From the IMG/VR virus record IMGVR_UViG_3300046004_000349, positions 1-31,089 of that record: a stretch of DNA of 31,089 nt. One strand, written 5' to 3'. This document shows, in pieces, positions 2,819 to 19,147 of the stretch (the stretch's first letter is position 1; the number at the start of each line of letters is the position of its first letter). The notes beneath the pieces were generated by a model. That model had not been told where the DNA came from, did not search any database, and saw only the letters and a list, made by a program, of their open reading frames with translations. The position numbers were made by a program, and so were the translations under genes. This stretch comes from a virus.

Positions 2819-2841
2819 GTTGCTTTTATTGCATACTCACA
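2819..2841 (+). promoter_or_regulatory. Recurring GTTGC element, copy R1
   Basis: The 54-nt gap before the spike base gene carries GTTGC-TTTTAT-TGCATACT. About 19 of 23 positions match the copy at 9409, and the copy at 7790 is clearly related. It starts 47 nt upstream of the gene's GTG. I infer a phage promoter or operator. It does not form a convincing host sigma-70 promoter. Confidence 0.5.
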
Positions 2842-2865
2842 TAACGAAATATCAAGGAGATCATC

Positions 2866-3138
2866 GTGCCAGCAAAAAACCTATTCGACGGATATACAAG
2901 CGGAGCAGAAGTTCCAGCACTCCGCATGACAACCATCGCTCCAAGCGATGCATCAGACCTGCCAGTTGCAGTTCGCATGATCTATGTAGGTGTGGGTGGT
3001 GACGTGAATATGACAGACACCGAAGGCAATACGGTTCTGCACAAGAACGCCGGAGCTGGCTGTTACCTTGGCCCGTTCCGGGTTGCAAGAGTACGCACTT
3101 CCGGGACGACTGCAACAAATCTGGTTGGGTACGTGTAA
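2866..3138 (+). CDS. Spike base protein, RCAP_Rcc01079-like
   Basis: The 90-residue product has the pattern of the small spike base proteins first known from the Rhodobacter gene transfer agent. It has an alignable start, a TTIAPSDASDLPVAVRMIYVG stretch around residues 22-42, a beta-rich centre, and a conserved end with FRVARVxTSGTTATNLVGYV features. Such proteins hold spikes on the capsid or tail base. The start is GTG, chosen for the AAGGAG 8 nt upstream; no upstream ATG fits. The stop overlaps the next start as TAATG, which suggests the two products work together, with this protein as the socket for the following spike. Confidence 0.72.
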   Translation: MPAKNLFDGYTSGAEVPALRMTTIAPSDASDLPVAVRMIYVGVGGDVNMTDTEGNTVLHKNAGAGCYLGPFRVARVRTSGTTATNLVGYV

Positions 3139-4508
3139 TGCGGATCGGTATGGGCATTGGGGTTCGCAAGCCAAGTGGCATAACCCCCATCCAACGTGCC
3201 ATCTCCCTCCTGCGCTCCTACGGCACCAACGCTCATGTCTACCTCCCCGGCGTAGGCGTCCTCTCCGGCCTCCAAGCTGCGAACTACCTAGACTCCGCAG
3301 GCACGACGCAAGGCACAGTGGATCAGCCGGTTGGGCTGGTTAAGGACAGCTTTGGTGCAAATGACGCAATCCAGTCCACAACGCCATCGAAGCCCGTGCT
3401 GCGGCGGGGGGCGCTTGCGCTTAACCCAAACTCGCAGAATTTATCTGGGTGGGGAGCAACTACCGCCACTCTTACACCGGCTCAGTTAGACCCCTTTGGT
3501 GGAACATCGGCAACGAAAATAACAGGGGTTGCGACCGCCTATGGGCGGTTTGCACGTCAGTACAACACCCTTATCGCGTCAACTAAATATACTGTTGCGG
3601 CAGTTGTAAAAGCAGGGTCGCAAAACTACGCAGCGGTGAGGATTGCAAGCGCTGCCAACGCTTCAGATGAATACCCATACTTTGATCTAACAACTGGCGC
3701 GGGAACTAACGTAACACCAGTTGCAGGTGTTAACTCTGCGGTTAGCTCTGCGAACCTTGGCAATGGCTGGTGGTTGATTGTGCTTAACCACACCACAGGT
3801 GCAGCACCATCCGGTACAACAGATGTTGCCATGACAACGAGTACGGGGGGGACAACATCGGCACCATTAACGTCCGACAACATCTACTGCCACCGCGCAG
3901 CCCTATTCCAAGGCACCTACACCGCAGCCCAAATCCAAGCCCTCGGAGGCATCCCGCTGACCACAACAGCACCAGCATCAACGGCACTTGGCCCGTACTG
4001 GTGGCAGTTCGACGGTGTAGACGATTCGCTGGCTTTGAGTGGGCCGCTGTTTCAGATGAGCGATGACCATTGCGTGATTGCAGGTGGCATGACAAATGAC
4101 ACATCCTCAGTAATGGGTTTATTCTATGAATCTGGCGCTGGAGGCGTTCCTATAGTCGCCGGGCTTGGTGTTTCTTCTGGCGTAGCGCGTTGCTACTGGC
4201 GCGACGATTCAGGCGCACTGGCTAACGTGACGGGGGACGCAATAACACCCGGCGCTGCATTTGTATTGTCTGGGAGAAAGACCGGAAATGCGAAGCTACT
4301 ACGACAAAACGGAGTAGCAAAAACCACAGTTTCTACGGTGCTTGGGGCGACAACAATCACATCTCAAGCGATTGGATTTGATTCTGTGTCGTCTGGGTTT
4401 TGGATTGGTTCAATCTACCCACTAATAGCCATCAAAGGCACCGTTAGCGACGCCGATCTACTCACCCTAGAGCGATTCGTCGGCAACCTCTCAGGTGTCA
4501 CGATATGA
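3138..4508 (+). CDS. Spike/fibre protein with carbohydrate-binding and lectin-like domains
   Basis: This 456-residue protein has three visible parts. Residues 1-90 carry the virion-attachment-like segment found in many phage spike proteins (AANYLDSAGT...QPVGLVKDSFG). Residues about 92-265 look like a head-spike/carbohydrate-binding beta sandwich with the typical NLSGW...TPAQLDPFGGTSA pattern. Residues about 285-456 begin with WWQFDGVDDSLAL and look like a concanavalin/LamG-type lectin fold. The likely role is binding of a cell-surface glycan. It directly overlaps the spike base gene. No catalytic lyase or glycosidase motif is seen, so it is probably a binder and not a depolymerase. Confidence 0.68.
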   Translation: MRIGMGIGVRKPSGITPIQRAISLLRSYGTNAHVYLPGVGVLSGLQAANYLDSAGTTQGTVDQPVGLVKDSFGANDAIQSTTPSKPVLRRGALALNPNSQNLSGWGATTATLTPAQLDPFGGTSATKITGVATAYGRFARQYNTLIASTKYTVAAVVKAGSQNYAAVRIASAANASDEYPYFDLTTGAGTNVTPVAGVNSAVSSANLGNGWWLIVLNHTTGAAPSGTTDVAMTTSTGGTTSAPLTSDNIYCHRAALFQGTYTAAQIQALGGIPLTTTAPASTALGPYWWQFDGVDDSLALSGPLFQMSDDHCVIAGGMTNDTSSVMGLFYESGAGGVPIVAGLGVSSGVARCYWRDDSGALANVTGDAITPGAAFVLSGRKTGNAKLLRQNGVAKTTVSTVLGATTITSQAIGFDSVSSGFWIGSIYPLIAIKGTVSDADLLTLERFVGNLSGVTI

Positions 4509-4675
4509 CCGCCCTCTACTGCATCCTAGCCTACACGCTAGGCCTCTTAACAGGGGTCTGCGGCATCCTGATATCAATGGCAACACAGGGCGGTGCGAGA
4601 GCTGCCCACAGCACAAGGACGCCAAATGAGCTACGACACCACACTGACGATCACACTACCCTTCGCGCTGGCTGA
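4505..4675 (+). CDS. Small overlapping membrane ORF
   Basis: This 56-codon frame starts with an ATGA overlap on the spike gene stop and extends 50 nt into the next gene. Its first 25 residues form one clear hydrophobic helix with two Cys; the rest is polar and His/Thr-rich. It fills a 117-nt stretch that would otherwise be a gap. The coupled start supports translation, whereas the low-complexity tail in the overlap argues for weak constraint. The function is unknown. A membrane-anchored accessory lysis or exclusion peptide is possible. Confidence 0.4.
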   Translation: MTALYCILAYTLGLLTGVCGILISMATQGGARAAHSTRTPNELRHHTDDHTTLRAG

Positions 4676-4985
4676 CATTGCTTCACGCATTGGACGCGCA
4701 CTTGATCCGGATGTTGGTGGTGAGCGATCCTTTACCCGCATCGTGACAGGCTATGTGGACGACAAGCCCGTCTACGGGGACACGATCAGCACCACGACAC
4801 CATGCACATCTGTTTTCAAAGCACAGGCTGTTGCAATGTTAGCTGACCCATCTCTGCTGCACTTGGCTGTAGAAGCTGACTACGCGGTGCGCTGGGTTGA
4901 TCTTGTAGCACCTACGCTGGCGCAGTGCCAAGCGTTTTGTGATGGGGTGATTCCTGAGCCTTTACCACTTTTGGGGACTCCATGA
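4626..4985 (+). CDS. Uncharacterised virion-region protein
   Basis: The 119-residue product starts at the ATG at 4626, which has AAGG spaced 7 nt upstream. The in-frame codon at 4593 lacks such a site. It is a mixed alpha/beta soluble protein with no signal, no membrane segment and no recognised motif. It sits between a spike gene and a small fibre-associated gene, with which it shares an ATGA overlap, so a role in adsorption structures or their assembly is plausible. I do not recognise the family. Confidence 0.6.
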   Translation: MSYDTTLTITLPFALADIASRIGRALDPDVGGERSFTRIVTGYVDDKPVYGDTISTTTPCTSVFKAQAVAMLADPSLLHLAVEADYAVRWVDLVAPTLAQCQAFCDGVIPEPLPLLGTP

Positions 4986-5434
4986 GCCTACTTGCCAGAG
5001 TCGTACACCCCCCCGGTACGGAGGTAATCCTTGCTCGTGACGCTCATCCTGCGGAGAAGTACCTGTCAGTTGACGCCAACGGGTTCCTTCAGAACTCGCC
5101 GGAGACCAGCGGATTCGATCTGGCGGAGGGTGTGTTCAAGGTTGCCAGCTACGTCTGGGACATCGACACCCTCACTTGGGTGCGAGCAACTCAGTCATCC
5201 GGTGGTGGCGGAGGATCGACGGCCGTGGCCACCAAGGGCAAGCGGTTCGACCAAGCCAGCTCCACCGTGCTTTACATCGGAGAGGCTGACCCCGGCACCG
5301 ATACAGCATCTCCGGCATGGAAGATCAAGCGAGTCACCTTCGATGCATCCGGCTTTCCGCTGCATGTCCAGTACGCCTCAGTTGGCGCAGGGGCGTGTAT
5401 CTGGGATAATCGCGGTGCATTAACATACACCTAA
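4982..5434 (+). CDS. Two-part fibre-associated virion protein with Gly linker
   Basis: The protein has 150 residues and two parts joined by a Ser/Gly linker at about 72-80. The C-terminal part (about 85-150) resembles a short domain I often see next to phage fibre genes, with a pattern of the type FDxxSSTVxYIGEAxPGTxTxxPAWKIKRV ending in a WDNRGALTYT-like tail. The N-terminal part is beta-rich and unassigned. It overlaps the preceding gene by ATGA. A structural or adaptor role at the tail is likely. The exact role is unknown. Confidence 0.6.
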   Translation: MSLLARVVHPPGTEVILARDAHPAEKYLSVDANGFLQNSPETSGFDLAEGVFKVASYVWDIDTLTWVRATQSSGGGGGSTAVATKGKRFDQASSTVLYIGEADPGTDTASPAWKIKRVTFDASGFPLHVQYASVGAGACIWDNRGALTYT

Positions 5435-5449
5435 CGCAACGGAGTTACG

Positions 5450-5878
5450 ATGGCAAGCAAAACCACACGGTCAGCCAATGACGTAGTGAACTGGATGGCG
5501 CGGAATGTATCGCCATCTTGGGCATCTGCGACCATTCTTTACGCCTCCCTGCACGTCGGTGCCGTTGGCCTTGGTGGAGATCAGGCGAGCAATGAGGTGG
5601 CCTACACGGGCTATGCGCGTGCGCCCATCCTGCGGAACAACACCACTGGCGAGTTTGCAACAGCGGCTTCCGGCCAAACCGCAAACACCAACCTGATCCA
5701 GTTCGGCAACGCCACGGCGGGGACTTTCCCCATCACAGCCTCGCACGTCGGCCTTGGCGAAAACCCCAGCGGTGCTGGCACTGTGATTGCCACCGGCACG
5801 CTGGCGTCTCTCACTGTGATCAACCTCAACAGCAATCCTCAGTTCCCTGTCGGGCAACTGGTTTGGGGAGAACAATAA
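5450..5878 (+). CDS. Gp80-like phage tail fibre protein
   Basis: The 142-residue product follows the pattern of small Gp80/Gp23-type fibre proteins. It has an N-terminal helix, a YASLHVG segment (about 31-37), a GYARAP stretch, an FGNATAGTFPITASHVGLGENPSG-type beta region, and a closing FPVGQLVWGEQ that resembles the family's typical FPAGxL end. A GGAG lies about 8 nt before the ATG. Its stop overlaps the next ATG (TAATG). It is probably a virion component in the baseplate or fibre area. Confidence 0.65.
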   Translation: MASKTTRSANDVVNWMARNVSPSWASATILYASLHVGAVGLGGDQASNEVAYTGYARAPILRNNTTGEFATAASGQTANTNLIQFGNATAGTFPITASHVGLGENPSGAGTVIATGTLASLTVINLNSNPQFPVGQLVWGEQ

Positions 5879-6753
5879 TGGCTTTTTCTGGCGTTGATTC
5901 CATCATCACCTCCCGCACGTCGGGCAAGACCAAGCGCGTCAACTGGAACAAAACAGTTGTGACCGGCGCTACTTCCGCCGCTGGCCGCTGGCACGAGATG
6001 CTTTCTGGCGGCGGTACTGGCGGGCCAATGGTTTTGACCGGCACTGCTGGCGCTGGCGTCGCTTGCAGCAAGGCAACCCCCGGCGCACTGCCAATCGGCC
6101 CTGATGTGGCCACCGACCTCCGGCACTTGCTGTCTGCATTGGCCATCACTGGCGGAGCCACGCTAACGCCCGGAGTGATTCTGCTGACAGACATCATCCA
6201 CATCTACCGCTCGTGCGCCTTGGTGACTACACCAACCGCGCTCACTGCTCACCCGGTATGGACTGGCACAGGCGACACGCGCATGACCTCCGCTGCTGGC
6301 GTCGAGTGTTCTCTGGTGGTGACAACCGCAGGCACGGCAGGCAACGGGCAAATCACTCCGACCTACAAGGATCAGGGCGGGTTAGACCAAGCCTCGCCGT
6401 CCTCGCTCTATGCTCCAGTAGCCACCGCGCCGATTGGATGTCTTTACGGGCAGACCAACACAGCCGTGACTGTTGGTGGCCCGTACATGCCTCAGGCTAT
6501 TGGCGATTCAGGCGTGCAGCAGATCAACAGCTACGTGATCAATACCGGCCTGACCACAGGCGTTGGCGCATTCGTGCTGCATCGCCCCATCATGGAGATT
6601 CCATTGGCTGCCGCCAACGTGCCGAACATGCTGGAGTGGATTCTCGGAGATCGCATCCATGACGATGCCTGCCTCGGAATGTTCATCCAGATCGGCGGAG
6701 CAGCAACCACCGGCCAACAGGTAACTGGCTCGTTCGGTACTGCTTGGGGTTGA
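5878..6753 (+). CDS. Unrecognised structural protein
   Basis: This 291-residue protein is rich in Gly, Thr, Ala and Ser and looks largely beta-structured. It has no membrane segment, signal or catalytic motif. The ATG at 5878 is favoured over the in-frame codon at 5863 because GGGGAG is spaced correctly and it overlaps the preceding stop by one base. It is flanked by a Gp80-like fibre gene and by another gene of similar composition in the next frame, which starts 2 nt after its stop. A virion role is inferred from context and composition only. Confidence 0.6.
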   Translation: MAFSGVDSIITSRTSGKTKRVNWNKTVVTGATSAAGRWHEMLSGGGTGGPMVLTGTAGAGVACSKATPGALPIGPDVATDLRHLLSALAITGGATLTPGVILLTDIIHIYRSCALVTTPTALTAHPVWTGTGDTRMTSAAGVECSLVVTTAGTAGNGQITPTYKDQGGLDQASPSSLYAPVATAPIGCLYGQTNTAVTVGGPYMPQAIGDSGVQQINSYVINTGLTTGVGAFVLHRPIMEIPLAAANVPNMLEWILGDRIHDDACLGMFIQIGGAATTGQQVTGSFGTAWG

Positions 6754-6754
6754 T

Positions 6755-7480
6755 GTGCTACTGAACAATGGCACTTGGTTTGGACGCCTGCGCTCCACTG
6801 GAGCTATGGGCGTTATTCCTGCGTCGTTGACGCGCAACGCAGCGCGCATCAAGCTCTACGAGAATGCCCGCTTTGGCCAGAAGGTGTCCTTCCCACAGGG
6901 ATACCAGCAGGCCAGTCGCGCCATTCTGCCAAGCCTGAAGACCACCGACCTCATCTCCGCACGCATCACCGGCTCTGGCGACCTGTTCAATTTTCAGGTT
7001 CGCAACATCGTGAGCGTGGCGGCAACCATCAGCGGGTCAGGGTTCGTCAACTCCAGCGCAGAGGTTGGGAAGACAATGTGGGCCACTCTCGCTGGGACTG
7101 GCGCTCTCACTGGTGGCGCTCGTATGTTGGTCAGCATGAAGGCGTCACTGGATGCTGGAGCAAGGCCATCAGCATTCGACATCGCGCAAGAGGTGTGGCA
7201 GTCGCAGAAGACCAGCTACAACGCCGCTGGCACGATGGGCAACGGGTTGAACAACGCAGCCTCTGGTGGCGTGGATTACTCCGCGCTCGGGCAAGCGGTT
7301 TGGAGTGCGCTGGCATCAGCAAACAACACGGCTGGCACAATGGGCGCTGCTGCCCAAGCTGGCGGGTCTGCGCCAACAGCATCTCAAAACGCAGCAGCCA
7401 TCCGCATTGAACTCACTCCAGAGTTGCAGCGCGTGCTGGCCACACTCACCACCGGCCAGTTCTTGGCCTTGAAGGATTAG
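6755..7480 (+). CDS. Unrecognised structural protein with repeated AGTMG segments
   Basis: The 241-residue product seems to start at a GTG directly after the preceding TGA. A GGGG run lies upstream and no better in-frame start exists before residue 18. The C-terminal half holds two copies of a motif with the pattern VWxSxxxxxNxAGTMG (about residues 149-164 and 186-200), separated by a Gly/Ala-rich linker. It ends in a helical segment. The composition and place next to fibre genes suggest a minor virion or tail-associated protein. A programmed frameshift from the preceding gene is conceivable but not supported by a classical slippery site. Confidence 0.6.
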   Translation: MLLNNGTWFGRLRSTGAMGVIPASLTRNAARIKLYENARFGQKVSFPQGYQQASRAILPSLKTTDLISARITGSGDLFNFQVRNIVSVAATISGSGFVNSSAEVGKTMWATLAGTGALTGGARMLVSMKASLDAGARPSAFDIAQEVWQSQKTSYNAAGTMGNGLNNAASGGVDYSALGQAVWSALASANNTAGTMGAAAQAGGSAPTASQNAAAIRIELTPELQRVLATLTTGQFLALKD

Positions 7481-7481
7481 C

Positions 7482-7790
7482 ATGGCCGAGAAGATTGTCA
7501 TCTCCAAGAAGTTCAACGGATCACCCATCACCGTGAGTGTCGTCTCCGATGGCATCAGCATGTCGATGTCGATCAGCGACTTCTTGCTCGCTGTCTCGAA
7601 AGAGGCGGCCGTAGCGTTGGCCGAGGACGCGGGCCGCAACGCTGGCAGCCCTGCCCTGCTGCTCACGAACGCTCAGCTCTGTGCCAAGTTGGTGATTTCG
7701 GTTGTGGATACTGAGGTGCTTTCCACGCTGCTCAAGGCTGCTGGTGTGGTAATTGAGGAGATCAAACGCTCCTCTGTTGTGGCAGAATAG
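7482..7790 (+). CDS. Small uncharacterised protein
   Basis: This 102-residue soluble protein starts 1 nt after the preceding stop, with GAAGGA upstream. Two beta-type stretches at the N-terminus (about 1-30) are followed by mostly helical, Ala/Val/Leu-rich sequence. No motif, signal or membrane segment is visible. It is the last gene before a gap with the R3 element and may be the final member of the adsorption/virion operon. I do not recognise it. Confidence 0.6.
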   Translation: MAEKIVISKKFNGSPITVSVVSDGISMSMSISDFLLAVSKEAAVALAEDAGRNAGSPALLLTNAQLCAKLVISVVDTEVLSTLLKAAGVVIEEIKRSSVVAE

Positions 7791-7820
7791 TTGCTTCGGT
7801 TGCAATCTTATGCAATCGTA
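7790..7820 (+). promoter_or_regulatory. Recurring GTTGC element, copy R3, with 10-bp tandem repeat
   Basis: GTTGC-TTCGGT-TGCAATCT lies in the 53-nt gap between two genes and begins 54 nt before the next ATG. It continues into a 10-bp tandem repeat (TGCAATCTTA then TGCAATCGTA). TTGC and GCAA form a dyad. It is related to R1 and R2. A promoter or operator is inferred. Confidence 0.5.
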
Positions 7821-7843
7821 ACCCACCTCAACAGGAGAATCTC

Positions 7844-7948
7844 ATGGCCACCAAAGCAAAACCAGCACCAGCGAAGAAGGCACCAGCGAAGAAATCCGCT
7901 GCCAAGCCAAACCCATTCGCCAAGTTCATTGCAGCGAAGAAGAAGTAA
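7844..7948 (+). CDS. 34-residue Lys/Ala/Pro-rich basic protein (histone-H1-tail-like)
   Basis: A strong AGGAG precedes the ATG by 6 nt. The predicted 34-residue protein has 11 Lys, no acidic residue, repeated PAKKAPAKK-type units, and a short hydrophobic PFAKFIA patch before a Lys3 end. The composition resembles histone-H1 tails and DNA-condensing peptides. It stands directly before the small helical protein and the scaffold, so it may be packaged, bind DNA during head filling, or bind scaffold or capsid. It is too short for a family assignment, but the ribosome site and R3 upstream make it a credible gene. Confidence 0.65.
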   Translation: MATKAKPAPAKKAPAKKSAAKPNPFAKFIAAKKK

Positions 7949-7951
7949 CTC

Positions 7952-8260
7952 GTGACGCTCAACGAGATCGAGTCATCGGAGACAAAGCTCCGCGCCCTGC
8001 GAGACCTTAAAACGTCTCCGGGGTGGGCCATCATCATGGAGACACTCAAGGACGACCTCCTGAGTTCTGCTCTCCAACTGGCCGACAACCCCGTAATGAC
8101 AGAGACTGAGATGCACTTCCGACGAGGAGCAATCTCTGCCGCAAGGAACTTTGTCAATGTGATCGACCTACTGATCTCTGGATCAGAAAGCGATCTCCTC
8201 CTTGCTTCTGCAACCTCGCAGACGCAAAACAACTTTAACGCTCCGGCTTTCAAGGAATAA
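7952..8260 (+). CDS. Small helical protein before the scaffold
   Basis: This 102-residue protein starts at a GTG 3 nt after the preceding stop. It is almost entirely helical and amphipathic: charged N-terminus, an SPGWAIIMETLK stretch near residue 24, and a long helix with HFRRGAISAARNFVNVIDLL around 56-76. Many podophages carry such a short helical protein next to portal or scaffold genes. A head-assembly helper is therefore the best guess, inferred from location. No enzymatic motif is visible. Confidence 0.6.
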   Translation: MTLNEIESSETKLRALRDLKTSPGWAIIMETLKDDLLSSALQLADNPVMTETEMHFRRGAISAARNFVNVIDLLISGSESDLLLASATSQTQNNFNAPAFKE

Positions 8261-8263
8261 ATC

Positions 8264-9343
8264 ATGGCAGGCGAAATCGACCCAATGTTGGCAGCTATTG
8301 CAGCCAAGGCTCAAGGACAGCAACCCGGCGCAGCTCCCGCTCAAGCGATGGCTCCGCAGGCTCCTCCACCCAAGCCACAGGCAGACCCGGCTCCAACGAA
8401 CATGGAGAAGGCTCAGGCCAAAATCTCTCCAAGCAATCCAGCCACTGAGTCCGCTGACGCTCCGATCAACTTCTACAAGGTTGGCGCTCAGGAGTACACC
8501 GAAGACCAGATCAAAGGCACCATGTCCCGCTACAAGGACTTGAACTACAAGTGGCAGAGCAACAAGCCAGTTGTGGACGTGATCACCGCCATGATGGATC
8601 AAGCCAAGCAAGGTGGCCATGATGTCAAGCCTGAAGAGATGGCTGGACTGGTGGAAGCTGCCGTTCGCGCCTACGTCAAAGACCCGCAGATGGGTGGACA
8701 GAAGCAGGGTCAGAACGGCCAGAAGGCTGCCAAGGCTCCCATGTCCGCCGATCAGGAGTCTGGCGAGAGCGAGGGGCTGGGCGATCCTGACCACGCTTAC
8801 GAGCAGTGGGAGAAGGACAACGCCGTCAAGCTGCCACCCGGCTTCAAGGAGACTGCCAAGTCCTCCAAGGAGATGGGCGCGAAGATGGATCAGATGATGG
8901 CCATGTTCCAACAGGTCATCAGCGGTGGTCTCGCTGGCCAGCAGTCCAAGGATCAGGCCGGTCAAATGCTCCAGCAGGCTCAGGGCCAGCAAGCGGATGC
9001 AGCCACCAAGATGATCACCAACAATCTGAACATGGCGTTCCAGAAGGCTGGCATCCCGGTGGACGACTCTGTGCGTGGTGACTTCCGCATGTTCGCCGCC
9101 CAGCGTGGCTACGACTTCCCCGACTTCATGGATGGCGGTCTGACAGCTACGGTGGTTGCCGACTACCAAGCCAACAAGGATGCTCCTGAAGTCACTCGCC
9201 TGCGTGAGATGGCCAAGCGTCGTCAGTCCTTCACTGGCATGACCGAGGGTGCTCCGGGCGCTTCCGGCGCCTCTCCTGCGCCTGCTGCTGACCCGATGCT
9301 GGCGGGAATGATCTCCACGGCAATGGGCAAGCGGAACATGTAG
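8264..9343 (+). CDS. Capsid assembly scaffold protein
   Basis: The 359-residue product is low in complexity and rich in Ala, Gln, Lys, Pro and Met. It has a disordered Pro/Ala-rich N-terminal region (about 15-65), a polar helical centre, a Gln-rich helix (about 205-245), and a small conserved-looking C-terminal part with charged helices (about 250-330). It lies directly upstream of the capsid gene, the standard place for a scaffold. It would organise capsid subunits into a procapsid and leave or be removed before DNA filling. No protease motif is seen. AAGGA precedes the ATG at a good distance. Confidence 0.78.
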   Translation: MAGEIDPMLAAIAAKAQGQQPGAAPAQAMAPQAPPPKPQADPAPTNMEKAQAKISPSNPATESADAPINFYKVGAQEYTEDQIKGTMSRYKDLNYKWQSNKPVVDVITAMMDQAKQGGHDVKPEEMAGLVEAAVRAYVKDPQMGGQKQGQNGQKAAKAPMSADQESGESEGLGDPDHAYEQWEKDNAVKLPPGFKETAKSSKEMGAKMDQMMAMFQQVISGGLAGQQSKDQAGQMLQQAQGQQADAATKMITNNLNMAFQKAGIPVDDSVRGDFRMFAAQRGYDFPDFMDGGLTATVVADYQANKDAPEVTRLREMAKRRQSFTGMTEGAPGASGASPAPAADPMLAGMISTAMGKRNM

Positions 9344-9375
9344 CCCACTCCGGCGCAACAAGAAGCCCACTCCGG
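9342..9375 (+). repeat. 12-bp direct repeat around the scaffold stop and terminator arm
   Basis: AGCCCACTCCGG occurs at 9342-9353, overlapping the scaffold TAG, and again at 9364-9375 as the left arm of the terminator. The first copy could also pair with the terminator's right arm, giving a competing, longer-loop hairpin. Confidence 0.6.
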
Positions 9376-9386
9376 TGGGCTTTTTT
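9364..9386 (+). terminator. Intrinsic terminator after scaffold
   Basis: A perfect 7-bp stem (AGCCCAC / GTGGGCT) with a TCCG loop is followed by TTTTTT. It lies 21 nt after the scaffold stop codon and would end transcripts that come from the upstream virion genes. Confidence 0.88.
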
Positions 9387-9408
9387 CATTCTCCGCTCTT
9401 TGCACGAA

Positions 9409-9431
9409 GTTGCTTTAGTGGCATACTTACG
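9409..9431 (+). promoter_or_regulatory. Recurring GTTGC element, copy R2, probable capsid promoter
   Basis: GTTGC-TTTAGT-GGCATACTTAC lies just after the terminator and 155 nt upstream of the capsid ATG. It matches R1 in about 19 of 23 positions. The remaining leader (9432-9563) shows a small CCCGC/GCGGG hairpin at 9489-9502 and a T7 run but no convincing gene. A promoter that restarts transcription for capsid is inferred. Confidence 0.55.
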
Positions 9432-9563
9432 CCATTGCTTGCGAGTGCGCTACGGCTCCCACGACCAAGTGATGTGGTGTGCCGACCAAAACCCGCTGGA
9501 GCGGGCGAAGAACGCAACCGACCTTTGACCATTTTTTTGACGTAACCATTTAAGGAGACTTCC

Positions 9564-10736
9564 ATGTCTGCTATTGCTGGATTGCGCGGTACTGGTCAGT
9601 TTGGCGTTGACTATCGCCCGACTAACTACCGCGAACTGTTTACCCTGATCGAACCCAACGGCACTGCTCCGTTGAATGCTTTGTTGTCCATGGCTCAGTC
9701 CGAGTCCACAGATGACCCGAAGTACAACCACTTCCGTGACGAGATGCCTGCTCGCGTGTTGACCTCGAATGCTATTGATGCAACTGGTGTAACCACCATG
9801 ACCGTCACCAACATCTCGGACAACGCATTCGCCGTGGTCAACACCCTGTTGATGAACACGACCACGAATGAAATCGCCCGTGTCACCTCCGCTCCTACAG
9901 CCACAACTATTACCGTTGCTCGTGGTGCCTCTGGCTCTACTGCCGTGGTGACTGCTGTTGGTCAGAAGTGGGTTGTGATCGGCTCGGTTGACGCCGAGGG
10001 TGCTGGTAAGCCTGTCTCCGTGTCGTTTGATCCAACTACGGATTACAACTACACCCAGATTTTCAAGACCGGCATCGGCCTGACCAACACTCAGAAAGCC
10101 ACGTACCTGCGTACTGGTGACAAAGAGCAAGAGATGGTGACGAAGGCTTTGAAACTGCACATGAGCGACATCGAACGCGCCATGTTCTGGGGTCGTCGCT
10201 TTGAAGAGAACGGTACTACCGCTACTCCTCGTCGCTACACAGGCGGTCTGTTCAACATGATCACCAACGTGACTGACGCGGCTTCCGGTTTCGCAACTGC
10301 GAACACCATCACCGAGAACGAGTTTGATCGCTTGCTGATCGAACAAGTCTTCGCTTGGGGTGGAAAGCAGAAGCTGGCCATCTGCGGCCCTCGTGTCGTG
10401 TCGAACTTGCAAAAGATCGCCAAAGGCCGCTGGCAGCCAACCCAAGTGGACGGCACCTACGGTGTTTCCATGACGGGCTACAGCACCTTCGCTGGCGACT
10501 TGAACGTGATCATGCACCCCATGTTCCGTCAAATCCCCGGCTTCGAGAGCACCATGCTGATCTTGGACTTGCCTTACATCAAGTATCGGTACATGGAAGG
10601 CCGTGACACGAACTTGCGTCGTGATGTTCAGTCGCCCGACTCCGACGGCACCGAGCATTACTACCTGACCGAGTGCGGTCTGGAACTCCTGCAAGGGCGT
10701 CCTCACACCGTCATCAAGAACTGGCAAGCCGCCTGA
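9564..10736 (+). CDS. Major capsid protein, DUF5309/SU10 type
   Basis: The 390-residue product has the layout I associate with the DUF5309 (SU10-like) capsid family of HK97-fold phage capsids. It starts with GLRGTGQFGVDYRPTNYRELF-type residues, then a Thr/Val-rich beta insertion (about 70-140), a region with YNYTQIFKTGIGLTNTQK near 160-175, and a C-terminal half with FWGRRFEENG and RRYTGGLFNMI segments. Length is normal for the family. It builds the icosahedral head. An AAGGAG lies 7 nt before the ATG. Terminators on both sides and an R2 element upstream suggest its own abundant transcript. Confidence 0.88.
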   Translation: MSAIAGLRGTGQFGVDYRPTNYRELFTLIEPNGTAPLNALLSMAQSESTDDPKYNHFRDEMPARVLTSNAIDATGVTTMTVTNISDNAFAVVNTLLMNTTTNEIARVTSAPTATTITVARGASGSTAVVTAVGQKWVVIGSVDAEGAGKPVSVSFDPTTDYNYTQIFKTGIGLTNTQKATYLRTGDKEQEMVTKALKLHMSDIERAMFWGRRFEENGTTATPRRYTGGLFNMITNVTDAASGFATANTITENEFDRLLIEQVFAWGGKQKLAICGPRVVSNLQKIAKGRWQPTQVDGTYGVSMTGYSTFAGDLNVIMHPMFRQIPGFESTMLILDLPYIKYRYMEGRDTNLRRDVQSPDSDGTEHYYLTECGLELLQGRPHTVIKNWQAA

Positions 10737-10756
10737 TCTTGATTGGTGAATGAACA

Positions 10757-10794
10757 GGGTGGCGGTGAGCAATCTCGCCACCCTTTCTTTTTTT
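10757..10794 (+). terminator. Strong intrinsic terminator after the capsid gene
   Basis: An 8-bp GC-rich stem (GGGTGGCG / CGCCACCC) with an 11-nt loop is followed by TTTCTTTTTTT. It begins 20 nt after the capsid stop. Genes downstream have no visible promoter in the 76-nt gap, so they probably depend on read-through. Confidence 0.92.
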
Positions 10795-10812
10795 AAACCA
10801 CCGGAGAACAAC

Positions 10813-11109
10813 ATGTCCGAAGAATTGAACCAAGACGCAGCCGCAGAAGCAGCAGCCCCTGCCCCCGCCCCAGAGGTGGTCAAGCAATCCAAGCGCAAGC
10901 TGGGTGCTGTCACGCCAACGAGCGGCTTCAAAGCCTATCAGTCCACTGGTACGCATACCTACCCCTTCGACATCATGGTCAAGGGTGAGATGGTCAATGG
11001 CCAGTGGATGAAGGCCGATGGCTTTGTGGAGTTCCTTGTGCCAGACCACTTGGTCGAAGGCTTCGAGAAGCATCACCACTTCATCTCCGGCAACGTGGTA
11101 GCTGAGTAA
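10813..11109 (+). CDS. Small protein after capsid, possible head-completion or decoration protein
   Basis: This 98-residue protein starts at the ATG at 10813, with CCGGAGAACAAC directly upstream. The in-frame ATG at 10750 is rejected because it would put the terminator hairpin inside the gene. Residues 1-20 are an acidic, Ala/Pro-rich tail; residues 30-98 look like a small beta-rich domain with His-rich KHHHF near the end. It lies between capsid and the adaptor-like gene. Decoration or head-tail joining is plausible, but the family is unrecognised. Confidence 0.65.
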   Translation: MSEELNQDAAAEAAAPAPAPEVVKQSKRKLGAVTPTSGFKAYQSTGTHTYPFDIMVKGEMVNGQWMKADGFVEFLVPDHLVEGFEKHHHFISGNVVAE

Positions 11110-11111
11110 TC

Positions 11112-11558
11112 ATGGCCACATCTCTCTCTACCTCTCCGCAGATCGCTGACGATAGCGCTCCGCTTGACGTGCTGATCCTCCGCGCTCTGCGACGGTATGG
11201 AGAGATGGCCCCATCCACCGTCGATGGCGAGACCAGCATGATGTTCATGGACTACGCCAACGCCGTGGTCGATGACGTGCTCAGTCACCCATACTGGCAG
11301 ACCGGCGTGGATGTCCCCTACTACAACCACATCACAGAGCGACGCGGCATCCCTGACACCATCCTGCTGGCTGGTTTGGTGGCGCGTTACGCTCTCGACA
11401 AAAGCTCCAAGAAGGCTCAAGCCTACGAGATGGAGTACAACAAGCGCATGAATCAGGTGCTTGCACGCACCCGGTTCGGAGCAAGTCCCGTGTTCGAGGT
11501 TCAGGTCATCGACTACAACACGAACACCAGTGGATCGTCTGACCCCGGTGTCAACTGA
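11112..11558 (+). CDS. Head-tail adaptor-like protein
   Basis: The 148-residue product starts 2 nt after the preceding stop. Helices dominate: an LDVLILRALRRYGEM stretch (about 18-32), then a YANAVVDDVLSHPYWQTG segment, and a long amphipathic helix with YEMEYNKRMNQVLARTRFG (about 104-122). This layout and its place between the capsid genes and the tail nozzle match podovirus adaptor/tail-tube-A-type proteins such as T7 gp11 or P22 gp4. Sequence identity to those is not obvious. It would form the ring between portal and nozzle. The stop overlaps the nozzle start as TGATG. Confidence 0.6.
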   Translation: MATSLSTSPQIADDSAPLDVLILRALRRYGEMAPSTVDGETSMMFMDYANAVVDDVLSHPYWQTGVDVPYYNHITERRGIPDTILLAGLVARYALDKSSKKAQAYEMEYNKRMNQVLARTRFGASPVFEVQVIDYNTNTSGSSDPGVN

Positions 11559-13060: not shown

Positions 13061-14581
13061 ATGTCACGTCTTCGCCAATACTTTGCCAACCGCTACACCT
13101 CCTCCGAGGCAACGAACTCAGAGTTCGAGAACGTCATCCGCTACCTGAACTCTGCGGAGATCGGCAACTACACCGTTGGCGAGCTGCTGCTCAAGCTGTT
13201 TGACGACAGTGGAAACGTAGACGTTGGCCTTGGCCTGCGCTACAACCCTGCTACTGGCGTTGAGTTCATGACTGACGCAACCACCCAGAACTGGACTCTG
13301 CTCGTGTCGGCTGACGACATCCGTGGCACCTCCGGGCTGAACGTGGGAACCATTGAGGCTCCACTGTTCTCCAACCGGGTTGACGCCACCGCAGGCGTGT
13401 CCCAGACCGTGTACCCATACGTTGCGTCCGGCACTAACCCTGATGTCTTGGTGTGGGTCAACGGCGTGATGAAGGCCGCTGCCGACTACTTGTACTCCGC
13501 TGGCGCGAGCACAGTGACGCTGACCGTGGCTCCGGCTACCAGCGCTCTCGTGTCCATCGCAACCATCCGCACCAACCCAGCAGTGTCCTTCCGGCGCGTG
13601 GACTTGGTGGCAGCATCCGGTCAGGTGACATTCCCGTTCCCGCACACAGTCACCGAGGAGTTGGTTGTCTATCGCAACGGCATCTTGCAGCGTGAAGGCG
13701 GGGGCTTCGACTACATCAAGTCTCCCGGCACCGGCACGATCACGATGACCACCAGCCAAACCCTTGGCAACATCATCACCATCATCTGCATCTCCAACAG
13801 CGCCATTCGTGACGTTGCTGGCCTGATGCTGGAGGACAAGTACGCGACCAACGGCTTGATCAACATGGCAGCCATCAACATGCCTGACGCCTCGCTGACT
13901 CAGGCGAAGGTGAATGGTCTGGTGGCTGCTCTCGGAACCAAGGCGAAGATCACCGTCAGCGGCTCAGCACCACTCACTCCCGCCACCGGAGACCTGTGGG
14001 TCAACACCAGCTACGCTGTGCCTACGCTACTGTTCTATGACGGCATCCGCTGGTTGAGCAGCTCTCCTAACGGGATGATCCCGCTGCCGCTGCCAGCCAA
14101 TGCCCTGCAGTTCCTGCGCCTGAACTCGACAGCTACCGCCTTGGAGTATTCGCCATTCGACACCACTGGTCTGGTGCAGTTGTCGCAGGTCGGCGCGGCC
14201 AACGGGGTTGCTGCATTGAACTCCTTGGGGAAGGTTCCGAGCAGCAACATCCCTGACTTCGCCCAGCGCAGTCCGATCATTGGACGCATCAGTGGTGCAG
14301 TCGTTAACGGCTCCTACGTGGTTGGCCACATCGCTGGCAACATCCACGCCTTCGACTCACTCACCGCGAAGCTGACATCTGGCACTGCAACCCTGCAGCT
14401 ACAGGTTGGCGGAGTGACTATCGGGGCAACCCTCGGCGCTACCCTGACCTCAACCAAACTGGCCATCACCTCCACCGCGAGTGATGCGACCTCTGTGGTG
14501 AAGGACGTTGTGCTGGTTGTGACTGGCGCTGCTACGCCAGTTGACCTGACCTACAACATCGGCAGCCTGATTACCGGCTAA
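13061..14581 (+). CDS. Tail fibre protein with duplicated beta module
   Basis: This 506-residue protein starts directly after the preceding TAA, with AGGAG 9 nt upstream. Residues 1-105 look like a virion-binding N-terminal region. Residues about 107-170 and 180-245 are two copies of one beta module with the pattern DxLVVYxNGxxxxxxxDYxxSxGxxTxT. After a short helical stretch come a TPATGDLWVNTS-type segment (about 305-320) and a block with VAALNSLGKVPSSNIP features (about 380-395), a common joint in phage fibres. The C-terminus (about 405-506) is a beta-rich tip. It probably binds the receptor. It follows the nozzle gene, its likely anchor. Confidence 0.72.
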   Translation: MSRLRQYFANRYTSSEATNSEFENVIRYLNSAEIGNYTVGELLLKLFDDSGNVDVGLGLRYNPATGVEFMTDATTQNWTLLVSADDIRGTSGLNVGTIEAPLFSNRVDATAGVSQTVYPYVASGTNPDVLVWVNGVMKAAADYLYSAGASTVTLTVAPATSALVSIATIRTNPAVSFRRVDLVAASGQVTFPFPHTVTEELVVYRNGILQREGGGFDYIKSPGTGTITMTTSQTLGNIITIICISNSAIRDVAGLMLEDKYATNGLINMAAINMPDASLTQAKVNGLVAALGTKAKITVSGSAPLTPATGDLWVNTSYAVPTLLFYDGIRWLSSSPNGMIPLPLPANALQFLRLNSTATALEYSPFDTTGLVQLSQVGAANGVAALNSLGKVPSSNIPDFAQRSPIIGRISGAVVNGSYVVGHIAGNIHAFDSLTAKLTSGTATLQLQVGGVTIGATLGATLTSTKLAITSTASDATSVVKDVVLVVTGAATPVDLTYNIGSLITG

Positions 14582-14583
14582 CC

Positions 14584-14991
14584 ATGGCTGCAGTCTCCCG
14601 CATACCAACCTCCCACGCGGCCGTAGTCTGGCCGCATGTGGAGGAGTTCTTTGCTACTGTTGTGCCACACGCTGATGGTGAGTGGACGCTTGACCAGATC
14701 AAGGCCGACATCCTCACTGGCCGGAAGTCTCTGGTGACGGTGGTGAATGCCGGTAGGTTCCTTGGTGCTGTGTGCTACGTGATGCAGAGTCGGAACAATT
14801 CCCGTGTGGCGTTCATCACAGCCCTTGCTGGAGAGTCAATGACCAGCGAGGACAACTGGAATCAGTTGAAGATGATTTTTTCCAACGAGGGGGCAACTCA
14901 GGTTGAGGCCGCCATGCGCCCAGCAACTCTGCGCTTGTGGTCTCGCCTTGGTTTCCGAGAGAAGTACCGAATTACTGGAGTAGAAATATGA
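14584..14991 (+). CDS. GNAT-like internal virion protein (T7 gp13-like position)
   Basis: The 135-residue product has the order of elements of an acetyltransferase (GNAT) fold: an N-terminal helix, central strands with FLGAVCYVMQS near 59-69 and VAFITALAG near 77-85, and a C-terminal helix with RPATLRLWSRLGFRE (about 114-128). That ending resembles the GNAT tail where a helix leads to xxGF. T7-like phages carry a GNAT-like protein, gp13, at this point, just before the ejection proteins. Whether acetyl-CoA is bound is doubtful, because no clear Q/RxxGxG/A loop is visible. A structural or assembly role is therefore more likely. Confidence 0.6.
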   Translation: MAAVSRIPTSHAAVVWPHVEEFFATVVPHADGEWTLDQIKADILTGRKSLVTVVNAGRFLGAVCYVMQSRNNSRVAFITALAGESMTSEDNWNQLKMIFSNEGATQVEAAMRPATLRLWSRLGFREKYRITGVEI

Positions 14992-15893
14992 TCGCAAAGA
15001 AACGGTTTGTACTGATGAAGGGTGAAGGCGGAGGCGACGGAGGCGGCGGGGACAGCGATGCAACGGGTCTAGGGTGGAGTAGCCCCGAGTCAGCTCCAGA
15101 CACTCCATCTGTTCAAAGCGTCAACCAAGAGACGGCAGATAAGGCCGCCGCACAACAGGCGAGTGACCAGCAGACTGCCGACAGACTTGGCATGTCGCTG
15201 GACTCATACCGCGAGACAGCTTACAAAGAGGGGGAAGCCCCGGCGATGATGCCGGGAACGTCCGAAACCTCTGGCGAGATAGGCTCTTGGAGCCTGTGGA
15301 ACGAGGCTAAGTACCAAGCGGGCGAGATGGTGAGCGACATCAAAAACAAGGCAGACCGCCTTGGCATCGTCCCCGGCCTAAAGCCTCAAGACATCTTCAA
15401 CCGCGAGGAGGCTAACCCCGCTCTGCGCGACAAGAGAATGCTCGCGTTCCAAGAGACGGTTGGGGATGTGGCAAAGATGGCCATGCCAGCCCAAGTGAGC
15501 ATGGCGATTGCCGCAGCCAAGGCGCTGAATGGCGACGCACCAATGGGTCAGACATTCGGCAGCATTGTTGGCGGCCTGTCTAAGGTGCCTATGGGCGGTG
15601 CTATCGGCTCGATGCTTGGCGGGTATGTGGAGAAGGGTGACACCCCATCGGCTGGCGACATTGGCTCAATGCTTGGCGGGTACTTCGCTGGCAACGCAGG
15701 AGCCAAGGCTGGCTGGGGGATCGCTGGCAATGCTGGCGCGGCAGTCGGCGGGTGGGCTGGAAGCAAAGCTGGCAAGGCCGTAGGCGGAGCTGCTGCAACC
15801 AAGGCGGCCGAGTCTATGACTGGCGGAGATTGGGGTAAGACATTCGGCGTGACGCCATCAGGCAAATCAACCGCCACTGGCGGAACTTGGTAA
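14988..15893 (+). CDS. Ejection/internal virion protein with glycine-zipper region
   Basis: The start at 14988 overlaps the preceding TGA as ATGA and has GGAG 7 nt upstream; the in-frame 14937 codon lacks both. The protein has 301 residues. The first 20 contain a Gly/Asp-rich stretch. The middle is polar and helical with an EANPALRDKRMLAFQETVGD-type segment (about 138-157). Residues about 160-280 are almost only Gly, Ala, Met and small hydrophobics with GxxxG periodicity, including a duplicated IGSMLGGY unit. Such zippers insert into membranes. In podoviruses, proteins at this position (gp14-like) help form the DNA channel through the cell envelope. Confidence 0.65.
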   Translation: MIAKKRFVLMKGEGGGDGGGGDSDATGLGWSSPESAPDTPSVQSVNQETADKAAAQQASDQQTADRLGMSLDSYRETAYKEGEAPAMMPGTSETSGEIGSWSLWNEAKYQAGEMVSDIKNKADRLGIVPGLKPQDIFNREEANPALRDKRMLAFQETVGDVAKMAMPAQVSMAIAAAKALNGDAPMGQTFGSIVGGLSKVPMGGAIGSMLGGYVEKGDTPSAGDIGSMLGGYFAGNAGAKAGWGIAGNAGAAVGGWAGSKAGKAVGGAAATKAAESMTGGDWGKTFGVTPSGKSTATGGTW

Positions 15894-15903
15894 GGAGAAC
15901 ATC

Positions 15904-16914
15904 ATGGCAAGCGTACAACAACCAGAAGCACCATCCACCTCCATGAGCCTCGTCGATCTGGCGCGGCTCCTTGGCACTATGGGTTCACTCGAATCGGCAC
16001 GAGGAAGCTCCGCAGCTACAGCGCGTGACATGGCTGGCAACCTGCGAGATCGAACCAACGCAACGAACAGTGGCGCGGACACCTATGCCCAGCTCGTCGC
16101 CGCGCTGCAGGCTCAGGCCATCCCAGATGCCGCAGGGGATGAGGCCAGTCTGATCAATCGAACGAACCAGATTGCCTCTGCACTCAACGCGACCACTGAC
16201 CGAGCCAGCGCTATTGCCAGCTCGCAAGCTGGCGCTGGCCTGCTCAAGCGCGGCATGGCCAACTCCAGCCAAGCCTCCGATATGGTTGGCGGGCTGACTC
16301 GCCAGTTCGGTGACGTGTACCAGAAGATTCAGGAAATGGCACGTCAGCGAGCCTTTGACGAGATGAAGCAGAAGGCCGCTGCCAACACCGCCAACCTGCA
16401 GGTAGCCACCCAAGGTCTGGTGAACATGGACAACCAAGCTCTGACGAATGCAAGGCAACTGCAGCAGCAGTCAGCCAAGACAGCCAGCGACACCACCTCC
16501 GAGTACGGTAAGCAGTTCACCAACATCCTTGGCAACAAGCTGATGGATTGGGGATCGAAGAAGGCTGACGGATTCCTGAATGATGCACTCGGGCAGACTG
16601 ATGCGAATGGAAAGAAGCTCGGTGGTTTTGACGCCCTCCTCTCGGCGCTCCAGTCCGGCCTTGGTGTTGGTCAAGAAAAATGGAGTGCTGACCAGTCGTG
16701 GATGGATAACTCTTCCGCGCCACAGGCATCGCACGCACCAAAGTCAGACTTTGACCTCACCCCTCAAAGTAACAACCAAGCAGGCGGAAGCTCAATAACC
16801 GACTGGTTGAGTAGCTCGAAGCCAGACATCAGCTACCCTGCCTACGAAGCCCCGGAGGAGCAATACTCTGGCGGAAGCGATAGTGACGGGTGGGAATTTG
16901 ACTGGTCGGCATAA
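15904..16914 (+). CDS. Internal virion/ejection protein
   Basis: The 336-residue product has AAGGAG spaced 6 nt upstream. Residues 1-200 are helical, Ala/Gln/Asn/Ser-rich, and probably form coiled coils. A GLLKRGMANSSQASDMVGGLTRQFG-type segment (about 113-137) sits in the middle and is followed by long amphipathic helices. Residues about 250-336 are Ser/Gly/Asp/Trp-rich, low in complexity and acidic. No enzymatic motif is seen. Position between two ejection-type genes and composition point to a protein carried inside the head and released with DNA. It is not assignable to a named family by eye. Confidence 0.6.
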   Translation: MASVQQPEAPSTSMSLVDLARLLGTMGSLESARGSSAATARDMAGNLRDRTNATNSGADTYAQLVAALQAQAIPDAAGDEASLINRTNQIASALNATTDRASAIASSQAGAGLLKRGMANSSQASDMVGGLTRQFGDVYQKIQEMARQRAFDEMKQKAAANTANLQVATQGLVNMDNQALTNARQLQQQSAKTASDTTSEYGKQFTNILGNKLMDWGSKKADGFLNDALGQTDANGKKLGGFDALLSALQSGLGVGQEKWSADQSWMDNSSAPQASHAPKSDFDLTPQSNNQAGGSSITDWLSSSKPDISYPAYEAPEEQYSGGSDSDGWEFDWSA

Positions 16915-16925
16915 GGAGCAAGAAC

Positions 16926-18665
16926 ATGGTTACAGAACTAATGCAAAGCGGCAGCGAGGTCTCCTTCATCCAAGGGATGGATCAGCAGGAGAAGTCAAAC
17001 CGGACAGACCGGCTGGCCAACCTTGAGGCGTTCCGCAAGTTCGGAGCGGATGCCGCAGCCGAGGGCAACGTGCTGTCCACTGAGCAGTGGGCAAGCATGT
17101 CGCAGAACATCCTTGGCCGTGATAGCTGGCTCAGCTCCACGTCCCCATCGGCTGACGCCATTGGAATGCTCCAGCAGAACCAAGCCAAGTCCGCGCAGCA
17201 GACGGCTGAGGTGCGCCGACGCGAGCAGTTCAAGGCTGATGATGCCGAGGAGAAGTCTGCGTTCGAGGCTGCTCAAGCGCACTTCGCTGGCGGGCTAGAT
17301 GATCCAGTGAAGGTTCTTGATCAACTCAATCTTCGCTACTCGCCAGAGGTGATTGCGAAGCTGAAGCCAAAGCTGGAGCGAGCGAGGCAGCTCGCCATGT
17401 ATAGCTCCGAGAAAGAGGGGTTGGAGTACGGCAAGAAGTTCAACAGCGTAGCAGAGGCCGAGGAATTCGTTAAGGCGAACCAGCATCTCTCCAAGTACAC
17501 GGCCGAGGGAATGGTGTCATCGGCTCGCGCCAATGAGGAGGCGCTCGTGGCCAAGGTGACGGCAGCCGCTGCCACACAAGGCACCACTGGATGGCGAGGA
17601 GATGAGGATGACACTGCTGGCATGATGGCCATCATTGACACCGCCATGCCGAGAGCGAGTGCTGAGGCTAAGTACACCATGCTCAAGTCAGCCCTGAAAA
17701 CGGCTCAGGCTTCGCACCTGAACAAGGTTGCATCGGAGCATGAGTCGGATGCGAGAACCATCAGAACCAACAATGCGAACAACGCAACCGCATCCACCCT
17801 CACTGTGATGAAGATGGAATCAGAGGACGCGGCCAAAAGGCAGGCTGACGCAAAACGCTATTCTGACATCGCCCTGCAGACGAGGGAGGGCCAGAAGCTG
17901 GTGATAGACAAGCTGCCCAAGAAGCTGAAGCCAGATCACGCGCTTGAGGTGTCAACAGCCTTTGCAACCTACGCATTCAAAGACCCGCTGGCCTATGCTA
18001 TGGCGGTGCAGGATGGCGACGAGAAGACCAAGACGGAACTGCTGCGTGCCGCAACCCCAATGAGCGTTCTCTCTGCGCGGGCAGACGCCATCGGCAGGCT
18101 TGTCACTGGCAACTTCAGGTCGGCTGGCGAGGCTGCGGAGATGTTTCAGCAGTCAGCACTTGGCGTATCGGAGGCGAGCGCCATCAGCGCCGGAAAAATT
18201 ATTCAGGTTCAATCCGACATCTCCAACAGCGGGAAGAGTGCGGAGGTTACTCAGACGGCGAAACGGACTGCACTTGTCTCGCGTCAAGGGTTTATCACGG
18301 ATGCGGCGGCAGACATCAAAGGGTTCCGAGATGCTGTGCAGTCGAACACCCACATCGGGGCGGAAGCTGGCGACATGCAGCAGCACGAGTTCGGCATTGC
18401 CATGCAGCGAGCAAGATGGCTCTCCGCTGGTATGCGTGGAGCCACAAAGCAGTCTGAAGTTGAACTCGCCCAAGAGATCATGCGGCAGGCAGGCCCATCG
18501 TCCAGCTATACAAGAACCCCGTACCCAGCAGAGAGGTTCCAAACTGAGCTTGAGCATCAGCGCGGTGTCGCTGGACTTGACCAGAGAACCGGCTGGCTGC
18601 CCGGAGCTGGAGTCCCCAGCCCAAGAGCCAAGCCAACAGGCGGATGGGCACCAGCGGATTTCTAA
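16926..18665 (+). CDS. Large helical internal virion/ejection protein
   Basis: This 579-residue protein starts at an ATG with AAGGAG 8 nt upstream. It is nearly all alpha-helical and rich in Ala, Glu, Lys and Gln, without a signal peptide or membrane helix. Position and character resemble T7 gp15, the middle protein of the ejectosome. The last 22 nt overlap the next gene in another frame. The C-terminal stretch (about 540-579) is Gly/Pro-rich and looks like a linker, which would fit an ancestral fusion to the transglycosylase encoded next. Confidence 0.6.
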   Translation: MVTELMQSGSEVSFIQGMDQQEKSNRTDRLANLEAFRKFGADAAAEGNVLSTEQWASMSQNILGRDSWLSSTSPSADAIGMLQQNQAKSAQQTAEVRRREQFKADDAEEKSAFEAAQAHFAGGLDDPVKVLDQLNLRYSPEVIAKLKPKLERARQLAMYSSEKEGLEYGKKFNSVAEAEEFVKANQHLSKYTAEGMVSSARANEEALVAKVTAAAATQGTTGWRGDEDDTAGMMAIIDTAMPRASAEAKYTMLKSALKTAQASHLNKVASEHESDARTIRTNNANNATASTLTVMKMESEDAAKRQADAKRYSDIALQTREGQKLVIDKLPKKLKPDHALEVSTAFATYAFKDPLAYAMAVQDGDEKTKTELLRAATPMSVLSARADAIGRLVTGNFRSAGEAAEMFQQSALGVSEASAISAGKIIQVQSDISNSGKSAEVTQTAKRTALVSRQGFITDAAADIKGFRDAVQSNTHIGAEAGDMQQHEFGIAMQRARWLSAGMRGATKQSEVELAQEIMRQAGPSSSYTRTPYPAERFQTELEHQRGVAGLDQRTGWLPGAGVPSPRAKPTGGWAPADF

Positions 18666-19096
18666 AAGAGGGGGGAGGCAAGCCCAGCCTTACCCCTGCT
18701 GAACACGAGGCGAGGAAGACTGAATTCATCAGGGCCATCTACGGTCAGGAGTCAGGCCACGGGGCGGCAGATACCTCCTTTGTAAATAGTCAGGGTGTCA
18801 CCGGGCCAATGCAGGTTGAGTTCGCAACCTTCCAAGGCATGAAGAAGAACGGTCAGATACCAGCGCACGCAGACTTCAGCAACCCGAACCACACGAAGCG
18901 AGCTGGAGAGATTCTCGCTGGCCAGCTTTTTGATGACTACGGCGGCGACACCAAGCTGGCTGCAGCGGCGTACTACGGTGGCCCGAAGGCGGTGCGAAAT
19001 GGAAGAGTTGTAGAGTTCGGGAACCGCGAGCGCCCCGAAGACCCAACCACTTCACGGTACGCAAGGGATATTGCGGAGCGCATGAAGGGTCGCTAA
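18644..19096 (+). CDS. SLT-type lytic transglycosylase, virion-associated
   Basis: The 150-residue protein shows the soluble lytic transglycosylase signature: IYGQESGHG with catalytic Glu36, GVTGPMQV at 51-58, AAYYGGP at 108-114, and a closing SRYARDI (about 138-144). It would open the peptidoglycan locally so that DNA and ejection proteins can cross. In T7 the same activity sits at the N-terminus of gp16; here it is a separate gene just before the giant protein. The start overlaps the previous gene by 22 nt and its ribosome site is weak (AGGCGG directly upstream). A better purine run (18669-18679) lies downstream without a suitable start, so the exact start is uncertain. Confidence 0.82.
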   Translation: MGTSGFLKEGGGKPSLTPAEHEARKTEFIRAIYGQESGHGAADTSFVNSQGVTGPMQVEFATFQGMKKNGQIPAHADFSNPNHTKRAGEILAGQLFDDYGGDTKLAAAAYYGGPKAVRNGRVVEFGNRERPEDPTTSRYARDIAERMKGR

Positions 19097-19097
19097 A

Positions 19098-19127
19098 GTT
19101 GCATCGTTATGCGACAATCCTCCGGTA
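19098..19127 (+). promoter_or_regulatory. Recurring GTTGC element, copy R4 (weakest)
   Basis: GTTGC-ATCGTT-ATGCGACAAT begins 50 nt before the giant gene ATG, at nearly the same distance as R1 and R3 from their genes. The second half is shifted by about 1 nt relative to the other copies. It runs into the hairpin that follows. Confidence 0.35.
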
Positions 19128-19145: not shown

Positions 19146-19147
19146 GC

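Follow-up and report, generated by a model that had tools for sequence, protein, structure and literature searches.

A repeated sequence element with a putative sigma70 promoter layout in the intergenic gaps of a phage virion gene cluster

The window analyzed here is the whole of the IMG/VR virus record IMGVR_UViG_3300046004_000349 (G000), a fragment of 31,089 bases; the early region lies outside it. It carries lysis genes, tail genes, a putative scaffold gene (8264-9343), the major capsid protein gene (9564..10736, + strand; phrog_1328) and, after the virion genes, a giant gene of ~3,400 codons (19148-29407, with its ATG at 19148) whose product matches no Pfam or PHROGs family. An integrase gene occupies the other strand, and upstream of it, at 30485-30510, a sequence resembling the 3′ end of a tRNA (GGTGCCCGAGACCGGAATCGAA, + strand; recognized by eye) is likely the attachment site. 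The capsid protein shares 53% identity across 100% of its length with that of Roseobacter phage CRP-810, and the genes downstream of it are syntenic with those of CRP-810, so that both the capsid and the gene order are CRP-810-like. CRP-810 integrates into its host, and a family of integrating phages has been described with it as the type (PMC11288001). Within this setting, the window belongs to a close clade of four IMG/VR species with capsid identities of 81-85%, the others being L003, L004/L019 and a species referred to as sp2, which is represented by contigs G003, G004, G005, G006 and G021. G021 and G006 are treated as one species because their overlapping stretches are identical or near-identical. 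Most of the relatives are metagenome fragments, and gene calls outside the window are mechanical.

The virion cluster is compact, with only 464 nt of noncoding DNA in 29.3 kb, and exactly four of its gaps exceed 20 nt (2812-2865, 7791-7843, 9344-9563 and 19097-19147). All four hold a copy of the same element. An earlier note on this DNA had placed the element in four of five + strand gaps; its four copies stand, but its gap count does not. The first copy, R1 (2819..2848, + strand), lies 47 nt 5′ of the GTG start (2866) of a tail-fibre-like gene (phrog_12296) and consists of a -35-like TTGCTT (2820-2825), a second repeat, TTGCA (2829-2833), and a poor hexamer, AACGAA, at the -10 position (2843-2848). 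R2 (7790..7819, + strand) overlaps the stop codon of the upstream gene and is situated 54 nt 5′ of the ATG (7844) of a gene for a 34-aa lysine-rich protein. R3 (9409..9438, + strand), which reads GTTGCTTTAGTGGCA, is the putative promoter serving the major capsid gene; it lies between a terminator and the leader of that gene, 155 nt from the start codon. R4 (19089..19118, + strand) again overlaps an upstream stop codon, 59 nt 5′ of the giant-gene ATG, and has the layout TCGCTA-N17-GACAAT. This last copy had been assigned to 19098, a position that is out of register because the second repeat was aligned; the true start is 19089 (GTCGCTAAAGTTGCATCGTTATGCGAC). Likewise, the string GTTGC-N6-TGCA that had been proposed as common to the copies occurs in exact form only at 2819 and 7790, with R3 and R4 differing from it, and the spacing of 47-54 nt claimed for three copies applies to R1 and R2 but not to R4 or R3. 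By eye, R1 and R2 are identical at 15 of 23 ungapped positions rather than 19, and R1 and R3 at 18 of 23.

A matrix scan of the kind suggested in the earlier note, performed by training on one set of species and scanning the other so as to avoid circularity, ranks the four copies first to fourth in the window. With a matrix built from sp2 only, they score 27.1, 26.2, 23.2 and 17.6 bits, relative to a shuffle background with a 95% point of 16.3 bits and a maximum of 18.0; the weakest, R4, is near that maximum and rests also on its orthologue in G006. In the reverse direction, a matrix from the window, L003 and L004 scores the sp2 copies at 24.8-33.5 bits versus shuffle maxima of 18.8-21.0. By this cross-species ranking, the full element is beyond chance. 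The short pattern alone is weak evidence, since GTTGC-N6-TGCA with at most one mismatch has 27 matches in the window versus 15.8 +/- 4.0 expected, many of them within genes. The four best matches of the full matrix all reside in gaps. A 16.8-bit match at 27983, within the giant gene, was discarded; the cross-species matrix gives it 15.6 bits or below, which is in the shuffle range.

The sister phages have similar copies at three of these four sites, ahead of the genes for the small basic protein, the capsid and the giant protein, which is the kind of conservation that the earlier note had proposed looking for. R2 has orthologous copies in three sister species, R3 is conserved in all four species of the clade, and the R4 orthologue in G006 reads GTCGCTTTCGTCGCATACTGATGCGACAATAC. 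A collection-wide scan of IMG/VR with the strict motif returned six contigs, all from the window clade; the element is absent from CRP-810 and the more distant relatives scanned, and a search of genome contigs gave only two distant metagenome-assembled matches. When motifs were sought de novo in gaps, with crude gene calls, the element emerged from G021 and nothing comparable from CRP-810 or G015.

There are four strong copies in the window and five in the sister species. The sp2_E copy precedes a gene on the strand opposite the virion genes, and the sp2_T and L049a copies precede a 90-91-aa gene that opens the terminase operon; the start of this operon in L048 is without the element. In both L048 and L049, an antisense gene resides between terminase and portal (L048:5745-6164, - strand; L049:2631-3050, + strand); its 139-aa product has a weak GntR-like match, and a direct-repeat copy lies 50-53 nt upstream of the gene, pointing toward it. 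Being isolated and antisense, this gene needs its own promoter. Where L048 and L049 hold it, the terminase-portal gap of L005 and of G021 contains a degenerate element-like sequence that can be read in both directions (L027:3878-3904) and is perhaps a remnant. The replication genes of sp2 have no strong copy, the best match there being 12.0 bits before prim-pol.

Alignment of 16 copies yields the consensus GTTGCnTTnGTTGCATACTnATGCrATAAT, the most constant part of which, GTTGCnTTnrTTGCwTAC, contains GTTGC as a direct repeat spaced at 9 bp from start to start. Positions 2-4 read TTG in 13 of the 16 copies, TCG in the two R4 copies and GTG in L004 R2. The TTGC/GCAA dyad remarked upon previously is present, with a third, inverted arm (ATGCrA), but is less constant than the direct repeat: by eye, the arm occurs in about 9/16 copies, and the dyad is missing in R1, L003 R2, and the L048 and L049 copies. 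Its arms vary together in R3 (TGGC..GCCA) and R4 (TCGC..GCGA). Such covariation would be in keeping with an RNA element in the leaders, in which the dyad forms a hairpin that controls processing or translation. This possibility seems the most remote of those considered, as the constant part is the direct repeat and not the dyad, two copies overlap upstream stop codons, and R3 lies downstream of a terminator.

Scores for -10 hexamers peak only at position 25, which is 17 bp past TTGCnT. A -10-like hexamer (four or more of the six positions matching, A2 and T6 among them) is found at this position in 6 of the 16 copies, versus a best-offset maximum of 5 in shuffles (0 of 2000), although the p-value is optimistic because the test counts orthologous copies (R3, R4) as independent. 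Five of the six copies concerned come from different sites or well separated species. Good hexamers are present in sp2_E (GATAAT), sp2_T (GATAAT) and sp2_R2 (AATAAT), and those in R1, R2 and, in all species, the R3 copies are poor. The earlier judgment that the copies are not good sigma-70 promoters is therefore apt for R1-R3 taken alone, and a consensus scan reports none at R1-R4; it does not extend to the family, in which sister copies read TTGCnT-N17-GATAAT or AATAAT with the -10 peak at 17 bp. Judged from its sequence, the layout is of the sigma70 type with a conserved spacer, the -10 support existing at the level of the set only. Other promoter classes do not match: the GC-to-GC distance is 9 where sigma54 (-24/-12) requires 11, the spacing of sigma28 promoters differs, and the spacing of the T4 MotA box (TTGCTTTA) fits the L048 copy only.

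Taken together, the element probably represents a clade-specific class of sigma70 promoters sharing a box for a phage regulator, most likely a late activator (a probability of roughly 0.6). Promoter function is well supported by the sequence comparison, and from it we infer where transcription begins, that sigma70 is used, that a regulator takes part and in which direction it acts. A host RNA polymerase of the sigma70 type would read the element at several transcription units, with the first TTGCnT serving as the -35 box, the -10 hexamer following after 17 bp, and transcription starting about 37 nt past the first G of the element. The second GTTGC, together with the partial dyad TTGCAT-N4-ATGCrA in the spacer, would then be the box for one phage-encoded DNA-binding protein, and because one protein would bind the shared box, all copies would respond together. 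The shared element is probably a means of switching on the particle genes together. This reading predicts particular bases at which transcription would begin, and one regulator for all copies. Against it stand the poor -10 hexamers of the R3 copies in all species, and the ribosome sites in R1 and in the divergent copies L003 R2 and L049a, which are near enough to be truncated by a start at position 37.

The protein that would bind the box is most likely an activator of late genes, which is favored because the -10 hexamers of R1-R3 are poor and because strong copies occur at virion or isolated genes and not at replication genes. An activator site is not usually conserved across the spacer as this one is between -26 and -11, a pattern that a repressor would fit as well. 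In phage lambda, PR has the form TTGACT-N17-GATAAT with the dyad operator OR1 between its hexamers. The element resembles PR in its N17 layout and in the dyad between -35 and -10, and differs in that one box is found at four or more late units, often with poor -10 hexamers. Conceivably, these are sigma70 promoters whose spacer box serves a lysogeny repressor as its operator; repressor dimers would occupy the dyad and the third half-site, and the prophage would silence each unit separately. The window does encode an integrase and CRP-810 does integrate into its host (PMC11288001), the TTGCAT/ATGCrA arms lie between -35 and -10 and covary in R3 and R4, and some copies have good -10 hexamers that would be in need of repression. 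However, a repressor would act first at replication genes, where the sister species has no strong copy, the -10 hexamers of R1-R3 are poor, and the dyad is missing from several copies; an operator of this sort is the foremost alternative to an activator box, albeit an unlikely one.

A repressor could also act without any promoter being involved. The stoperators of Cluster A mycobacteriophages are asymmetric, occupy short gaps between genes and are oriented along transcription (PMC9283540), all of which holds for the element too. If the copies were sites of this kind, blocking elongation in the prophage, their confinement to short gaps, their single orientation relative to the genes and the temperate nature of the phage would be expected, these being traits of known stoperators (PMC9283540). 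Stoperators are 13-bp sites, many per genome and lacking a promoter, whereas the element is longer, has promoter hexamers, and exists in four (window) or five (sister species) strong copies as against more than 20 in L5. The -10 hexamer at exactly 17 bp would be left unexplained, as would the copy right after a terminator and those at isolated antisense genes, so that a stoperator-like role appears very improbable.

The earlier note had also raised the prospect of promoters for a phage-encoded polymerase. Conserved repeats of ~25 bp before late genes are typical of phages with a single-subunit RNA polymerase, and the copies have this appearance. Nonetheless, no RNA polymerase gene was found in the CRP-810 annotation or among the G021 early genes tested, the giant protein of the window has no family match, and the sigma70 spacing fits the element, which makes such promoters about as improbable as stoperator-like sites.

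Precedents for the favored arrangement, an activated set of sigma70 promoters, exist among temperate phages. In phage P2, the small activator Ogr acts through a common box at dispersed late promoters read by host sigma70 RNA polymerase, and the direct repeats TTGC-N6-TTGC bound by lambda CII lie around the -35 of a sigma70 promoter. In phage Mu, the small activator C similarly serves dispersed late promoters with host sigma70 RNA polymerase (PMC4461284). The element is like the Ogr and C systems in having several dispersed late promoters in a temperate phage, a common box and poor core hexamers. It differs from them in sequence and spacing, and their boxes are at or upstream of -35, whereas that of the element would begin at -36 and take in the spacer as far as about -11. 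Homologues of Ogr or C were not found. TTGC direct repeats in the -35 region are shared with CII sites, but the element has a period of 9 (N5) rather than 10 (N6), its first repeat is itself the -35 where the CII repeats flank it, and it is used on virion genes. Identity with a CII site was rejected on the basis of the N5 spacing and the position of the first repeat.

The gene for an activator would be expected in the early region, outside the window. Among the sp2 proteins, just one is a clear candidate for a transcription factor: a 156-aa protein carrying a helix-turn-helix of the sigma70-region-4/GerE type (G021:21678-22148; L047:2678-3148), whose gene overlaps an integrase gene. It is homologous to CRP-810 gp13; the paper on the family (PMC11288001) names gp13 LuxR, records it from 107 relatives and reports no promoter analysis. 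As the regulator of the box, the 156-aa protein is only a lead, because CRP-810 has the protein without the box.

Between the putative scaffold gene and R3 is an intrinsic terminator (9360..9386, + strand) with an 11-bp stem, a UCCG loop and a T run, equivalents of which are present in the three sister species and in CRP-810. Each of the four clade species has R3 downstream of this strong terminator, and the capsid gene thus needs a new start there, unless the terminator leaks. Within the capsid-gene leader is a hairpin (9436..9468, + strand; loop CGCTACGGC at 9448-9456) that begins at a constant distance of 39-40 nt from the first base of the element (39 in the window), which is about the predicted start of the RNA. 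In the wider family, the -10 hexamer upstream of the hairpin is not significant (p 0.14), and so hairpin position alone proves no start site elsewhere.

A hairpin with the almost invariant loop CGCUACGGC is a feature of all 14 CRP-810-like capsid leaders compared (window, L003-L005, L009-L013, L015, L017, L025, L032 and L033), with CGC[UC][AG]CGGC lying 101-162 nt 5′ of the capsid start in every one. In the structure stem-C-GC(UACG)GC-U-stem, 81.6% of cells pair, two-sided changes number 24 cells versus 9.4 +/- 2.5 in shuffles (0 of 500), and the covariation score is 0.51, falling to 0.06-0.19 when the partner is slid. In the window clade the 3′ side of the stem is displaced by 2-3 nt, which leaves the window with a weak stem in the common register; the capsid leader of the window, taken as a whole, folds no better than shuffles. 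No Rfam family reaches its gathering score in the window, and none of the sub-threshold matches in the window and L009 leaders covers the hairpin convincingly. In the genomes scanned, the capsid leader is the one convincing match to a model of the hairpin, weak matches at window 8227 and L030 5403 being coding sequence for a conserved C-terminus. The hairpin is a candidate for a new family of RNAs shared by diverse phages and offers a way into the control of capsid dosage.

More tentatively, R3 may be the front half of a capsid control unit, in which a clade-specific promoter is joined at fixed distance to a family-wide, protein-bound RNA hairpin that sets capsid output or mRNA life. The hairpin, whose loop CGCUACGGC would be a UNCG-type tetraloop with a C.U mismatch, would then sit at the 5′ end of the capsid mRNA, its binder being for instance the capsid or scaffold protein. 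If so, it would constitute a new cis-acting RNA family in a phage family that is widespread in marine and fresh waters. In the leaders of the distant relatives L009, L010, L011, L015 and L032 there is a second hairpin, directly after the scaffold gene and with GGGACGACA on its 5′ side; the window clade has the terminator and the element in its place.
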